This document shows, piece by piece, positions 3,573 through 9,281 of a DNA stretch of 41,208 bases. The notes beneath the pieces were generated by a model, which was not told where the DNA came from, did no database searches, and saw only the letters and a program-made list of their open reading frames with translations. The translations under genes and the position numbers were made by a program. Source of the stretch: Bdellovibrio sp. CG22_combo_CG10-13_8_21_14_all_39_27. GTDB taxonomy: Bacteria > Bdellovibrionota > Bacteriovoracia > Bacteriovoracales > Bacteriovoracaceae. Each line of letters opens with the position of its first letter. Within the stretch, counting starts at the first letter, position 1. Location of the stretch: NCBI GenBank assembly GCA_002786715.1, contig PCTW01000005.1, forward strand, positions 1-41,208, given 5' to 3'.

Positions 3573-3839
3573 TTATGCAGGTTTATCTGAGTCTTTTGTG
3601 GCTTCATCGACTTCTGGAGTCACTCCACTAGGAAGTTGCTCCGTTTTTGTCTCTTGATGGGCGACATGAGTCGGAGCATCAGGAGTGTTTACCTGATGCA
3701 TCAATTCATCTTTTGCTTTTTGGAATTCGCGGATACTTTTGCCTAGGGACTTGGCGAGTTCAGGTAATTTTTTTGGGCCGATGAAAATCAACGCCAAAAA
3801 GAAAATCAGTAATAACTCGCCGCCACCTAAACCGAACAT
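3573..3839 (-). CDS. tatA: Twin-arginine translocase subunit TatA/TatB family
   Basis: This 88-residue protein is a TatA/B-type subunit, which forms the membrane pore or receptor part of the Tat system that exports folded proteins. The N-terminal membrane helix covers residues 6-20 and has Glu at position 8. The hinge FIGPKKLPELAKSLGK (about 19-34) leads into an amphipathic helix. The tail (about 50-88) is Pro/Glu/Thr-rich and probably disordered. The family signature is clear. The choice between TatA and TatB is not: Glu8 is commoner in TatB, while the short length suits TatA. No tatC is in the window. It starts 4 bases after the yajC stop, so it is co-transcribed with Sec accessory genes, an uncommon arrangement. 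Confidence 0.92.
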   Translation of the reverse strand: MFGLGGGELLLIFFLALIFIGPKKLPELAKSLGKSIREFQKAKDELMHQVNTPDAPTHVAHQETKTEQLPSGVTPEVDEATKDSDKPA

Positions 3840-3843
3840 ATAC

Positions 3844-4188
3844 TTAAGCCTTTTTTTCTACTTCAAAAAGTTTAGCAGCAAGACCACTGATTTGCTGGCG
3901 AAGAACTTTAAGTTTTACGCCTTCTGAAACTTCAAGAGTAATCACTTTATCAGTCATACCAACGATAGTTCCAAGTAGACCTGACTTCGTAATAATCTCG
4001 TCACCTTTAGCGAGTGCTTTAAGAGTTGCTTCTTCTTCCATTAAGCGCTTTTTCTGAGGACGAATCATCAAGAAATAAAAAATGAAGAAAATAACCACAA
4101 ATGGCAAAAATGACATCAATGGGTTTGGCTGACCTGCGGCACCAGCAGCAGTTTGGGCAGAAGCTTGAGCAATAAAAAGTGATAGCAT
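3844..4188 (-). CDS. yajC: Preprotein translocase accessory subunit YajC
   Basis: YajC is a small inner-membrane partner of SecDF in the holo-translocon. The protein has 114 residues. A short Ala-rich N-terminus is followed by one membrane helix (about 24-43) containing FFIFYFLMIRPQKKR, the family hallmark. A small cytoplasmic domain carries the typical GDEIITKSGLLGTIVG segment. It sits 21 bases after tgt and 4 bases before tatA, so it is in the middle of an operon. Its place between tgt and secD is the classical order, apart from the intervening tatA. Confidence 0.96.
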   Translation of the reverse strand: MLSLFIAQASAQTAAGAAGQPNPLMSFLPFVVIFFIFYFLMIRPQKKRLMEEEATLKALAKGDEIITKSGLLGTIVGMTDKVITLEVSEGVKLKVLRQQISGLAAKLFEVEKKA

Positions 4189-4209
4189 TATTAACCTCTC
4201 AGATATGAG

Positions 4210-5325
4210 TTATGCAAATTCGTTTGACGTGTAGGATTTATAGAATGAAGCACGAAACTCGTCAAACGATCCGTTAAGAATTGCAGTACGTGCGCGACGC
4301 ACTAACTGTAAGTAAAACCATATATTATGATAGCTAATCATTTGTCCGGCCAAATATTCACCTACGCTATAGAGATGGCGAACGTAGGCGCGAGAATAAT
4401 TGGCGCATACTTTACATTGGCAATCGGGATCAGGGGCCAACTTATCTTCTTTAAAACGTTCTTTTTTGATATTCATCGGGCCTTTTGAAGTCAAAAATTG
4501 GCCGTTGCGCGCATTTCGAGTAGGTAAAACACAATCGAACATATCAACACCTTCACCAATGGCATGAACAATGTCGAGTGGTGTTCCTACACCCATTAAA
4601 TAGCGAGGTTTTTGATCAGGCATTTGATAAACAAAATCTGCTAACAGCTGGCGCATTTCTTCATTTTTTTCGCCGACTGATAATCCTCCAAGAGCGAGAC
4701 CTGGAAAATCCATTTCATTTAAACGTTCAAGACATTCTTGACGGAGATGCAGATGAGTTCCGCCTTGAACGATACCAAAAAGGTTTTGATGAGGCTTAAG
4801 CTCATATTCGCGGCATCTTTTGGCCCATCTCAAAGTAAGCTCCATGCTGGTGCGAAGTGTTTCTTCTGTCGCTGGAAGCTTGGGGCATTCATCAAAGGCC
4901 ATGACGATATCACTGCCTAATGCTTTTTGAATCTCCATTGATTTCTCTGGAGAGAGCATATGACGAGAACCATCGAGATGAGACTGAAAAAGCACTCCTT
5001 CTTCTGTCACTTTATTGAGATCTGAGAGAGAAAAAACTTGATAACCGCCAGAGTCCGTTAGAATAGCGCGCTTCCAATTCATAAAACCGTGGAGCGATCC
5101 GCCCACTTTTTCAATCAACTCATGTCCGGGTCTTAAATAAAGATGATAAGTATTACCGAGAATAATTTCAGCACCAATCTCTTCCAATTCTTGCTGCCAT
5201 AAAGTTTTGACTGAAGCACGGGTTCCGACTGGCATAAAGATCGGCGTGTGAATATCGCCATGAGCAGTTTTAATCACTCCTGCACGGGCCTTGCCATCAG
5301 TTTTTTCAAGTTTAAAAAAAGTCAT
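4210..5325 (-). CDS. tgt: tRNA-guanine transglycosylase (queuine/preQ1 insertion)
   Basis: Tgt exchanges guanine at wobble position 34 of GUN-anticodon tRNAs for preQ1, a step of queuosine synthesis that precedes QueA. The 371-residue length is typical. The active-site Asp is D91 in TDSGGYQVFSL and the nucleophile is D264 in DMFDCVLPTRNARNG. The zinc ligands are C302, C304, C307 and H333, spaced as in characterised bacterial enzymes. The gene is first in the minus-strand run tgt-yajC-tatA-secD-secF. In many bacteria queA lies directly before tgt. Here queA is also present in the same orientation, but a plus-strand three-gene cassette lies between them. All key residues are present, so the enzyme should be active. 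Confidence 0.97.
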   Translation of the reverse strand: MTFFKLEKTDGKARAGVIKTAHGDIHTPIFMPVGTRASVKTLWQQELEEIGAEIILGNTYHLYLRPGHELIEKVGGSLHGFMNWKRAILTDSGGYQVFSLSDLNKVTEEGVLFQSHLDGSRHMLSPEKSMEIQKALGSDIVMAFDECPKLPATEETLRTSMELTLRWAKRCREYELKPHQNLFGIVQGGTHLHLRQECLERLNEMDFPGLALGGLSVGEKNEEMRQLLADFVYQMPDQKPRYLMGVGTPLDIVHAIGEGVDMFDCVLPTRNARNGQFLTSKGPMNIKKERFKEDKLAPDPDCQCKVCANYSRAYVRHLYSVGEYLAGQMISYHNIWFYLQLVRRARTAILNGSFDEFRASFYKSYTSNEFA

Positions 5326-5434
5326 TACATAGCATTATCTTATTTAGCTCTATAAAGGAAGATGAAGATAAAAAATCATTTGTTTTTACGCACATGTATA
5401 TTTAAGATTAATTCAATTAAATAAAGGTTACTCA

Positions 5435-6469
5435 TTGCTTAAAATAATTCTTTTTACTTTGTTCATTTCGACTTCAGTGAATGCTCAATCTCTCAAGCAT
5501 AAAATTTATGGTTACGCCCAAATGGACTGGAACACTTCAAGTGACTCCGACACCAAGGAAGGTTTTCAACTCAAAAGAGTTAATCTCATTAATGATATTC
5601 TTTTAACCAATAATTCTCGTTTCCTCGCCGATGTTGAATTCGAAGAAGGAACTGACCATACTCCAAGTTCAAATAAAGGAACGGTTAAAGTCTCAAGGGC
5701 TTTTTACGAACATTCTTTGTCCCAACATTGGAAATTCCAAGCAGGTAAAGTTCTTACTCCCTATGGACTCCTGAATGAAACCCATGACTTCTCAATCATT
5801 TATTTACCCGTTAATGTGCCCCTTCCCTATCGTTCCCAAAAAATAACAGCTTCTAGAAATGCACGCTTATATTCCAAATACACGACCGGTTTGAGTTTCA
5901 ATTATAAAACATCAAATCATAATCGTTTTTGGGATGCTCAATTATCCATCGGTAATGGTAGTCAGGAAAGTGATGAAGGAACTGATGTCAATAATGATAA
6001 GTCAGTTGCGGTTAAGCAGCAGTTCAAGTGGTACGGAGATAGCATTACAACGAACTGGGGAACTAGTCATTTCACAGAAGGAGACTCGACCCGATACGGT
6101 GGAATTGGTGGTCAAAGAATGTGGTCACATAACACGTTCCTCGGTCTTGAGAGTGACAACTTCCAGTTTAATTTGGAGCTTTTTTATTCGAAATTTAATA
6201 CTGGTTTAACAGCTAAACAGGAATCCGCTTCTGGCTATAGTGTTCTTGGCTATAATCTCTCCGACTCAACCATTCCTTATCTTTACTATGCTCAAAGTAA
6301 AATTGATTTAAGAGAAAAAGAATGGAACTCATCTTTTGGGATTGGACTTGCTCACAATATTTCACCAGCAGTGGTTATTAAGGGGGAATGGATCCGTACA
6401 GATCAACACCAAAATTTTGAAGAAAAAGCAATTGATGATTGGAATACCACTTTGGCCATTTCGTTTTGA
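5435..6469 (+). CDS. Porin-like outer-membrane beta-barrel protein
   Basis: This 344-residue protein has a signal peptide (1-17, ending SVNAQ), alternating beta strands throughout and a C-terminal Phe (TTLAISF), as expected for an outer-membrane barrel. The early segment YGYAQMDWNT, followed by strands with LKRVNLIND and a YGLLNETHDF turn, resembles phosphate-selective porin O/P-type proteins. Family assignment is moderate and the substrate is unknown. The start is TTG at 5435, with AAAGG (5423-5427) 7 bases ahead. An ATG would cut into the signal peptide. The stop lies 2 bases before the next start, so it is translated together with a PstS-like protein and an adenylyl cyclase. That context suggests a solute-uptake or sensing role. 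Confidence 0.85.
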   Translation: MLKIILFTLFISTSVNAQSLKHKIYGYAQMDWNTSSDSDTKEGFQLKRVNLINDILLTNNSRFLADVEFEEGTDHTPSSNKGTVKVSRAFYEHSLSQHWKFQAGKVLTPYGLLNETHDFSIIYLPVNVPLPYRSQKITASRNARLYSKYTTGLSFNYKTSNHNRFWDAQLSIGNGSQESDEGTDVNNDKSVAVKQQFKWYGDSITTNWGTSHFTEGDSTRYGGIGGQRMWSHNTFLGLESDNFQFNLELFYSKFNTGLTAKQESASGYSVLGYNLSDSTIPYLYYAQSKIDLREKEWNSSFGIGLAHNISPAVVIKGEWIRTDQHQNFEEKAIDDWNTTLAISF

Positions 6470-6471
6470 GG

Positions 6472-6903
6472 ATGATGAAGAAAGTACTCTTAATTCTATT
6501 TTTGATCGTAGGTTATTGTGAAGTCTCACAAGCACAATCTATAATCGTGAATGCTCAGAACAGCACCATCACAATTCCTTCTAAATTTGTAAAAGATATC
6601 TTTATTGGAAACATGACTCGATGGAAGAATAACTCTTTGATCGAAGTTGTCGATTACAATGCCAATACTGAACTCAGAACTGAATTCACTGCCAAGTATA
6701 TTGAAATGTCAGTTATGAGGGTTTATAAAAATTGGATACGCCTATCACTCTCTGCAGAAGTGGCACCGCCAAAGATTTTCCATACCCAACAAGAAGTGAT
6801 CGACTTCGTTTCTAAAAATGCCAATGCTATTGGATACATCAAAGACCGACAGCTCATCTCCAAAGATTCTTCTGTTAAAGAAGTAAAAATTTTGGAGAAA
6901 TAA
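6472..6903 (+). CDS. Minimal PstS-like periplasmic binding protein
   Basis: This 143-residue protein has a signal peptide (about 1-21, ending SQAQ). It is a short version of the phosphate-binding-protein fold. The segment DIFIGNMTRWKNN (42-54) matches the conserved 'IFxGxxxxW' stretch of PstS-like proteins, and AIGYI (119-123) matches the late conserved 'GYV' strand. It has about half the length of a true PstS and no ABC transporter genes nearby, so transport is unlikely. A periplasmic sensing or accessory role is inferred. An in-frame ATG 33 bases upstream lies inside the porin gene and would add a non-signal extension. ATG 6472 or 6475, with GAGG beside the porin stop, is preferred. Its stop overlaps the cyclase start by one base. 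Confidence 0.8.
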   Translation: MMKKVLLILFLIVGYCEVSQAQSIIVNAQNSTITIPSKFVKDIFIGNMTRWKNNSLIEVVDYNANTELRTEFTAKYIEMSVMRVYKNWIRLSLSAEVAPPKIFHTQQEVIDFVSKNANAIGYIKDRQLISKDSSVKEVKILEK

Positions 6904-8222
6904 TGATGAGTTGGAAATGGGGTTTACGCCACCAGCTTCTGGTTTCGATGGTTTTATTGACTAGTATTTTTGTTGCTGTTTTCTTTTATTATACTTCTGA
7001 TCAACAATACAAACTTTTTCATCGTGAGTTTATTAGTAAAAATAATAGTGTTACTGAAACAGTTAAAATTGGTTTAGAGATTGGCCTGCAAAATGAAAAT
7101 CTCGAGGCGATTAAATCTATTTTTGATTGGGTTAAAAATCAAAAAGATTTTCATTGGATAGGTATTACCGATTCAAGTGGTGAAATCTTTGCCAGCTACC
7201 CTAGTGAGCTCAGAGAAGATTTCTTAAGCCACCAATCCAGCGATCTCAACCTCCCAACAATCACCACTTCGAGAGATTGGAAATCCCCTCTTGATCACGG
7301 AAGTATCGTGATCGCTTTTTCCACAGATCGCTACCACCTTCAATCTCAAAAACTTTTTAAAGATACCGCTTTTTTTTCATTCATTATTTTATTTTTAGCG
7401 GTCATCCTCTCTCTTCTACTATCTCAGCTCATTGCCAAGCCATTAACTTCATTTCAAAAAACGATTGAACAAATTTCGTCGGGTCACACCCATCACCGCA
7501 TTGATTCAGAATCTGGAGGTGCTGAAGTTAAAGGACTCACCCAGTCTTTCAATATCATGATGGATGAGCTCAATGAGGCACAGATGAAGATTGAGCGAGA
7601 GAAACAAAAATCCGAAAATCTGTTACTTAATATTTTACCGGTCAAAATTGCGGATCGATTGAAATCGGGAGAAAAGATTATTTCCGATAAGCTCGACTCA
7701 GTAACCATCCTTTTTGCGGATTTGGTGGGTTTTACTGTGCTCGCGTCCAAAACACAGGCGCCAGAATTAGTGGCGATCTTAAACAGAATTTTCTCAGATT
7801 TTGATGATCTGTGTGAACAAACGAGAGCTGAAAAAATTAAAACCATTGGCGATAGCTATATGGTGATTTCGCCCTTGGGAAGTGACGCCTCTAAAGGAGC
7901 TCAAATCATGATATCCTTTGCCCAACAAATGCTTAAAATCTTATCTCAAATTAATCGTGAAAATGATCTCTCATTGCAGCTCAGAATTGGTATTCATACT
8001 GGTCCTGCGATTGCTGGAGTCATTGGCAAGAAAAAGTTTAGCTATGATCTTTGGGGCGATACCATCAATATAGCATCTCGACTTGAGTCTCATGGGATCC
8101 CTGATCAAATACAGATTTCTGAGTCGACTCAGCTTTTGATTAAGGACTACTTTAAAAATGAATATCGTGGAGAAATTGAATTAAAAGGAAAAGGGAAATT
8201 TAAGACGTTCTTAATCTCTTAA
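6903..8222 (+). CDS. Membrane class III adenylyl cyclase with periplasmic sensor and HAMP
   Basis: The 439-residue protein should make cAMP as a homodimer at the inner membrane. The domains are: membrane helix 11-31, periplasmic sensor region 32-153, membrane helix 154-176, HAMP about 177-230, short coiled linker, and cyclase domain about 262-439. Both metal aspartates are present (D273 in FADLVGFT, D317 in KTIGDSYM), as are the transition-state residues N389 and R393 (INIASR). K313 and D382 (YDLWG) match the adenine-selecting pair, so cAMP is favoured over cGMP. ATG 6906 has better spacing to GGAG (6894-6897) than ATG 6903. It is the third gene of the porin/PstS-like cassette, and its end overlaps the end of queA by 12 bases. 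Confidence 0.93.
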   Translation: MMSWKWGLRHQLLVSMVLLTSIFVAVFFYYTSDQQYKLFHREFISKNNSVTETVKIGLEIGLQNENLEAIKSIFDWVKNQKDFHWIGITDSSGEIFASYPSELREDFLSHQSSDLNLPTITTSRDWKSPLDHGSIVIAFSTDRYHLQSQKLFKDTAFFSFIILFLAVILSLLLSQLIAKPLTSFQKTIEQISSGHTHHRIDSESGGAEVKGLTQSFNIMMDELNEAQMKIEREKQKSENLLLNILPVKIADRLKSGEKIISDKLDSVTILFADLVGFTVLASKTQAPELVAILNRIFSDFDDLCEQTRAEKIKTIGDSYMVISPLGSDASKGAQIMISFAQQMLKILSQINRENDLSLQLRIGIHTGPAIAGVIGKKKFSYDLWGDTINIASRLESHGIPDQIQISESTQLLIKDYFKNEYRGEIELKGKGKFKTFLIS

Positions 8223-9281
8223 AATAAACATAGCATCGCCATAAGAAAAGAATCGATACTTTTCTTCAACCGCGATTTGATACAACTCAAGCGTTTTTTC
8301 ACGACCCAAAATGGCCGAAACTAACATGATCAAAGTCGATTCAGGCAAATGAAAATTAGTAATGAGTCCTTTAATAGAATGAACTTCCTTGCCAGGGTGT
8401 AAAAAAATATCTGTAGAATTCCACTCACCTGCATTCACTTGAACAGAACCTTCGCAGTAAGAGCTCTCGAGACAACGAAGAGATGTTGTCCCTACCGCTA
8501 TAATCCTTCGTCCAGCATTGAGAAGCTTTAAGCTTTCTTGTTCTATCTTATAATTCTCACTGTGCATTTTATGTTCCAGTAGCGAATCACTTTTAACGGG
8601 GAGAAAAGTTCCAAGACCCACATGCAAAGTCACGGGTGCAAAATCATGACCACTTTGTTTAAGCTCATTCATGAGATCAGGAGTAAAGTGCAGGCCAGCT
8701 GTCGGAGCAGCAACCGAGCCATCTTCTTTGGCAAAAACCGTTTGGTAATCTTCTAGATCTTGTTGATCGCTCTCGCCTTTACGAATATAGGGAGGTATGG
8801 GAATTTTTCCGGCTTCAATGATGAGTGTAGAAAAGTCGCTACCCAAATATTTTAGAGTAAAAGTTCCCTCTTCATTGAGTTTGACGATTTCAAATAAGGG
8901 CTGGTCACTTCGTAGACCAAAAAGATCAGATACTTTCTTCTTGCCACTGGTTCGAATAAGCGCCGGAAAGTTTCCCTCAACATCTAATTCTGGAGCGAGA
9001 ATAAAAATTTCGCCTTTGCCCCCTGTGCTTTTCTCAACTGCCAGTCGACAAGGATAGACTCGACTTTGATTGATGGCGATAACAGAATTTTCAGGGAGAA
9101 AATCTCCAATCTTATTAAAAGTAGTATGAATAACTTCGTTAGATGATTGTCGGTAGACTAGAAGTCGTGATTGAGACCTACCAGGAATGGGTCGCTGGGC
9201 AATGAGTTCTTCTGGAAGCTGATAATTATAACTTTCACGAAGTAAATCTGTATGGCGTGTTGTTTCAGATTGTGTCATCAT
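8211..9281 (-). CDS. queA: S-adenosylmethionine:tRNA ribosyltransferase-isomerase
   Basis: QueA transfers and isomerises the ribosyl part of S-adenosylmethionine onto preQ1 in tRNA, giving epoxyqueuosine, the step after Tgt. The 356 residues cover the whole family length. Hallmarks are YQLPEELIAQRP near the N-terminus (20-31), the SVAAPTAGLHFT motif, VTLHVGLGTFLPV and ITNFHLPESTL. The N-terminus is about 15 residues longer than in many homologues. Two adjacent ATGs (9281, 9278) could start it, and neither has a strong ribosome site. Its stop lies inside the convergent cyclase gene. It is separated from tgt, its usual operon partner, by the plus-strand cassette at 5435-8222. Confidence 0.96.
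   Translation of the reverse strand: MMTQSETTRHTDLLRESYNYQLPEELIAQRPIPGRSQSRLLVYRQSSNEVIHTTFNKIGDFLPENSVIAINQSRVYPCRLAVEKSTGGKGEIFILAPELDVEGNFPALIRTSGKKKVSDLFGLRSDQPLFEIVKLNEEGTFTLKYLGSDFSTLIIEAGKIPIPPYIRKGESDQQDLEDYQTVFAKEDGSVAAPTAGLHFTPDLMNELKQSGHDFAPVTLHVGLGTFLPVKSDSLLEHKMHSENYKIEQESLKLLNAGRRIIAVGTTSLRCLESSYCEGSVQVNAGEWNSTDIFLHPGKEVHSIKGLITNFHLPESTLIMLVSAILGREKTLELYQIAVEEKYRFFSYGDAMFILRD

Follow-up and report, generated by a model that had tools for sequence, protein, structure and literature searches.

YfiBNR, a c-di-GMP system of Pseudomonas aeruginosa (PMC3375315, PMC4887326), relays information across the cell envelope by means of a small periplasmic protein, YfiR, which is sequestered from YfiN by YfiB (PMC4887326). 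A second group of described systems comprises the receptors stimulated by periplasmic binding proteins, among them chemoreceptors, kinases, c-di-GMP enzymes and Ser/Thr kinases (PMC9602780). Here we describe a three-gene locus within a 41,208-nucleotide stretch of a Bdellovibrio sp. genome (contig PCTW01000005.1; this whole stretch is hereafter called the window) that has features of both.

Like YfiBNR, the locus combines an outer-membrane protein, a small soluble periplasmic protein and a HAMP-coupled nucleotide cyclase with two transmembrane segments. The components themselves differ: the outer-membrane protein of the window is a 16-strand porin whereas YfiBNR has a lipoprotein of the OmpA/Pal type, the place of YfiR is taken by a lobe of PstS (referred to here as mini-PstS) with no match to the YfiR family in Pfam or NCBIfam, and the output is a class III cyclase. 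In YfiBNR the signal passes from one membrane to the other by way of the periplasmic protein, a role that is only proposed for mini-PstS. The resemblance, drawn by analogy, is one of layout and not of parts. As with the binding-protein-stimulated receptors, a relative of the periplasmic binding proteins is associated with chemoreceptors, kinases and c-di-GMP enzymes, but it is a single lobe that lacks the ligand loop, its gene almost always has a porin gene as neighbour, and in the window it is paired with an adenylyl cyclase, a type absent from the reviewed list of receptors activated by binding proteins (PMC9602780).

The three genes and their borders are listed in Table 1. Translation of the porin begins at TTG 5435, the only other in-frame starts past the stop at 5369 being TTG 5459 and GTG 5477. 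The ATG of mini-PstS at 6472 leaves a 2-base gap from the porin end at 6469, and the cyclase ATG begins at 6903, where the mini-PstS TAA ends, which gives a 1-base overlap; the open reading frame boundaries thus confirm the coordinates and spacing of the first-pass annotation. A promoter and terminator scan of the locus yielded no terminator-like sites between the trio genes and two on the plus strand, both within the cyclase gene, while its promoter predictions were not enriched relative to shuffled sequences. Elsewhere in the window, inspection by eye revealed a gene for a TatA/B-like small membrane protein (3573–3839) between yajC and secD, in what is otherwise a classical queA–tgt–yajC–secDF run.

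Table 1. The trio and its borders in the window.
Feature	Position	Strand	Remarks
tgt, left border, ancestral neighbour of queA	4210..5325	-	
Outer-membrane porin	5435..6469	+	344 aa, signal peptide, C-terminal Phe
mini-PstS (secreted single lobe, PstS fold)	6472..6903	+	143 aa
Membrane class III adenylyl cyclase	6903..8222	+	TM1, periplasmic domain of ~125 aa, TM2, HAMP, catalytic domain
queA, right border	8211..9281	-	Convergent; 12-base overlap with the cyclase stop at its 3' end

The AlphaFold model of the porin (pLDDT 89) has 16 strands, with a long loop (108–148) between strands 5 and 6, and its best Foldseek matches are VhChiP, OmpT, OmpC and OmpU (E from 4e-13), which together bear out the outer-membrane barrel that had been claimed. 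The protein has all the hallmarks of a 16-strand porin, namely the barrel, the signal peptide and the C-terminal aromatic residue. A profile of the porin family searched against PDB also matched OprO/OprP (8.8e-8, 7.5e-6). The window porin is like OprO/OprP and the general 16-strand porins in barrel topology, and like OprO/OprP in profile, but differs from both groups in that its gene lies beside mini-PstS and in that no Pfam porin family matches it above cut-off; OMP_b-brl appeared only below threshold, and Porin_O_P was not matched by the window porin, although two of its relatives match that family below cut-off.

In PstS, two lobes close around phosphate, each supplying half of the site, and the SGT/RST loop of the lobe that mini-PstS retains binds the anion. 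The mini-PstS model (pLDDT 93) spans a single lobe and has no second one to close against; Foldseek aligns it with the PstS structures 4exl, 1twy and 4gd5 (TMq 0.62–0.66), and it matches positions 121–218 of the 295 in the NCBIfam profile ptsS_2 with 21.3 bits, while scoring far below the curated cut-offs of the PstS families (TIGR02136, PF12849). The half-size binding-protein fold put forward in the first-pass annotation is upheld as a PstS-type fold, but only one lobe is present and its anion-binding loop is not conserved. This loop is missing from 85 of 87 mini-PstS sequences, the window protein having NTEL in its place, and is retained in four of five full-length sequences. Compared with the PstS/PBP_like_2 proteins (TIGR02136, PF12849), mini-PstS is alike in the sequence and fold of one lobe and unlike in its size (~145 aa versus 250–320), in the loss of the anion loop and in having no pst transporter genes adjoining it. 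As had been claimed, no PstC, PstA or PstB gene lies beside mini-PstS, whose neighbours are the porin and the cyclase; a separate pst-like cluster is found on another contig of the same genome (C40, L086). Because of the lost lobe, the lost loop and this separate cluster, ‘phosphate-binding’ is a statement of ancestry for mini-PstS rather than of demonstrated function. Several plasmid records label half-PstS proteins as components of phosphate ABC transporters, which is probably misleading. A YfiR fold was considered as well and rejected, there being no YfiR-like structure among the best 50 fold matches.

The third gene encodes a catalytic domain (PF00211, E 4e-59) coupled to HAMP (PF00672, E 1.2e-8). 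Its residues D273, K313, D317, D382, N389 and R393 provide the two metal Asp, the adenine-specifying Lys/Asp and the transition-state Asn/Arg of class III enzymes, in agreement with the earlier assignment of HAMP and a full catalytic set, and the enzyme should make cAMP. Domain order and catalytic residues are those of other HAMP-coupled class III adenylyl cyclases, from which it differs in being linked to a porin and mini-PstS. Searched alone, the periplasmic stretch gave sub-threshold matches to sCache_4 (17.3 bits; cut-off 22.1) and CHASE8 (12.8 bits), so that this domain appears weakly single-Cache-like. Homology of this domain to YfiN is not supported: the NCBIfam matches to DgcN and to the YfiR-associated kinase disappear when HAMP and the transmembrane segments are left out, and the likeness to YfiN is thus put forward as analogy only. 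Full-length matches to the N-terminal half of the cyclase, from TM1 through HAMP, occur only in the three genomes with the cyclase form of the locus, each time beside mini-PstS, and a search of plasmids with the window cyclase returned, among the matches listed, only relatives of the catalytic region (59% query cover). The genome has 14 matches to the cNMP_binding domain, 13 of them above cut-off, and these predicted proteins could be effectors for cAMP or another cyclic nucleotide. Its sole other class III cyclase domain is in a 744-aa protein (L024 5610–7844, G000:C79) that adjoins a predicted secreted protein of 480 aa.

Among the relatives examined for queA, 26 of 29 have queA and tgt directly adjacent on the same strand; the other three show no tgt in the fetched flank, in at least one case because of a contig end. 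In the window the trio sits between these two genes on the opposite strand, and given the adjacency in the relatives it most likely arrived there as a unit. The surroundings of the other two cyclase-form trios (L061, L070) differ from those of the window, and this is most simply read as the trio moving as one unit. A 21-nt imperfect direct repeat (76%) at 5427–5447 and 8207–8227, almost exactly at the ends of the insert, may be a trace of insertion or may be due to chance.

Beyond the window, we surveyed 129 genomes of the Bacteriovoracaceae, including Halobacteriovorax and Bacteriovorax, of which 40 contain matches to the mini-PstS profile, some of these being full-length PstS. Neighbourhoods were compared for 86 short mini-PstS homologues (L098 and L181 being one locus in this set), 39 from the Bacteriovoracaceae and 47 from other bacteria, for the most part members of the Malonomonas rubra phylum, with further loci from Calditrichota and from beta- and gammaproteobacterial plasmids. 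A porin matched by one and the same profile, itself partly built from the surveyed loci, adjoins mini-PstS at 81 of the 86 loci and is found for none of 238 control genes, which were drawn from 20 arbitrary 20-kb stretches in 19 of the same genomes. Membrane transducers recognised by kinase, chemoreceptor, GGDEF/EAL or cyclase motifs lie within three genes of mini-PstS at 54 of the 86 loci, an undercount in that Pfam identifies eight more neighbours as kinases, chemoreceptors or a GGDEF protein, as against 14 of the 238 control genes, an enrichment of about tenfold over background (for both comparisons the loci are related, and Fisher p values overstate their independence). Built from ten seeds, the porin profile recovered 85 proteins among 1289 open reading frames, 81 of them adjacent to mini-PstS, and it matched none of 358 control genes. 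Conservation past close relatives, on which the first-pass annotation had staked its case, therefore holds for the porin/mini-PstS pair with a transducer, but the exact trio with a cyclase occurs in only three of the 129 family genomes (the window, L061 and L070, one of which is cut by a contig end).

Several pairs have no adjoining transducer, i.e. L148 and L149 from Calditrichota, L138 and L144 from Alteromonas plasmids, and L152, L153 and L157, which suggests that porin and mini-PstS may have a role without one. A clade of three Bacteriovoracaceae loci (L019, L060, L062) has kept mini-PstS and a histidine kinase, with a GAF domain in the L019 kinase, and has no recognisable porin adjoining. 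The survey also brought to light some individual arrangements: the pairs at L138 and L144 on Alteromonas plasmids lie beside type IV CRISPR genes (csf1-3) and an N-6 DNA methylase, L154 (3976–8403) has a tandem duplication in the order mini-PstS, porin, mini-PstS, porin, porin next to a single chemoreceptor, and the histidine kinase of L015 (5750–7142) is in two open reading frames (220 and 236 aa) and may be broken or frameshifted.

The outputs confirmed with Pfam are the cyclase (window, L061, L070), HATPase, MCPsignal, GGDEF and EAL. Replacement of the cyclase by GGDEF proteins or chemoreceptors had been predicted, and both are found beside the same porin/mini-PstS pair, as are histidine kinases and EAL proteins. 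In Malonomonas rubra (L098) the porin (3757–4971), mini-PstS (4968–5420) and a PAS-GGDEF protein (5420–7087) follow one another in the same compact order with tight junctions; the order is porin, mini-PstS, chemoreceptor in Massilia putida, chemoreceptor, porin, mini-PstS on a plasmid of a P. aeruginosa river isolate, and porin, mini-PstS, GGDEF-EAL in Caballeronia. On the mini-PstS tree, which is a quick tree with SH-aLRT support only, the four outputs require about 14 changes, where the minimum would be three if each had arisen once. Sister pairs may carry unlike outputs (MCP in L143 and EAL in L145, support 97; MCP in L167 and GGDEF-EAL in L174, support 95), and the three cyclase loci form a single clade (support 96). 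The periplasmic regions of the transducers are diverse among the mini-PstS loci, which makes a single docking surface for mini-PstS awkward.

We think it probable that the trio represents one form of a modular sensory unit spanning the envelope, with the half-PstS connecting the porin to a swappable transducer. The contacts between the proteins, the way control runs, the stimulus and the making of cAMP are inferred as follows. The half-PstS would be a periplasmic go-between that associates with both the porin and the transducer's periplasmic domain. Changes in solute entry, in occupancy or in the state of the porin would alter this association, and the alteration would be passed via the periplasmic domain and HAMP to the rate of cAMP synthesis, with cAMP then acting on CRP-type proteins in the cell.

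Alternatively, porin and mini-PstS may by themselves form the functional unit, as a channel for a solute, with a periplasmic partner that aids capture, gating or assembly, and the transducer would then be an independent sensor for that solute, often adjoining but without direct contact with mini-PstS. The pair is indeed much more constant, at 81/86 loci against 54/86 for a transducer by motif, it exists without a transducer, it is tandemly duplicated beside one chemoreceptor in L154, and both outputs and sensor domains vary. We nevertheless regard this explanation as somewhat unlikely; against it stand the roughly tenfold enrichment of transducers, the persistence of mini-PstS with a transducer and without the porin in the clade of L019, L060 and L062, and junctions that are equally tight on the transducer side (the 1-base overlap in the window).

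The solute signal originally envisaged, with phosphate as a candidate, fares less well. A sensor in which mini-PstS binds phosphate or a similar anion arriving via an OprP-like porin and then activates the cyclase would agree with the PstS ancestry of the one protein and the distant OprO/OprP similarity of the other, but mini-PstS lacks the second lobe needed to close on phosphate, the SGT/RST loop is absent from nearly all mini-PstS and present in most full-length sequences, and Foldseek favours general porins for the window porin. The loop and lobe tests leave such a signal unsupported; phosphate sensing was rejected as the main reading and seems to us improbable. That the three genes lie together by coincidence, through a single insertion and with no functional link, we consider very improbable indeed: the rarity of the cyclase version (3/129 family genomes) and the fact that the trio is an insertion are in keeping with coincidence, but the same pair recurs with transducers in several phyla, in varied genomic places and gene orders, and the control comparison speaks against it.

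Returning to the sensory unit, a more specific version of it is possible, which we offer tentatively: the porin itself may be the sensor, with the half-binding-protein as messenger or as part of a composite ligand site shared with the transducer periplasmic domain, in a widespread, unnamed receptor family with kinase, chemotaxis, c-di-GMP or cAMP outputs. If this is true, the window would hold the first binding-protein-coupled adenylyl cyclase. The module is not described in the open-access full-text papers searched, and it is testable in cultivable carriers, e.g. Malonomonas rubra, Pseudoalteromonas, Massilia and Halobacteriovorax. To our knowledge, few systems for sensing from the outer membrane to the cytoplasm are known in Gram-negative bacteria. 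If the sensory-unit reading is true, a pair of porin and half-binding-protein that is combined repeatedly with outputs of four kinds would represent a general answer to the problem of outer-membrane sensing.
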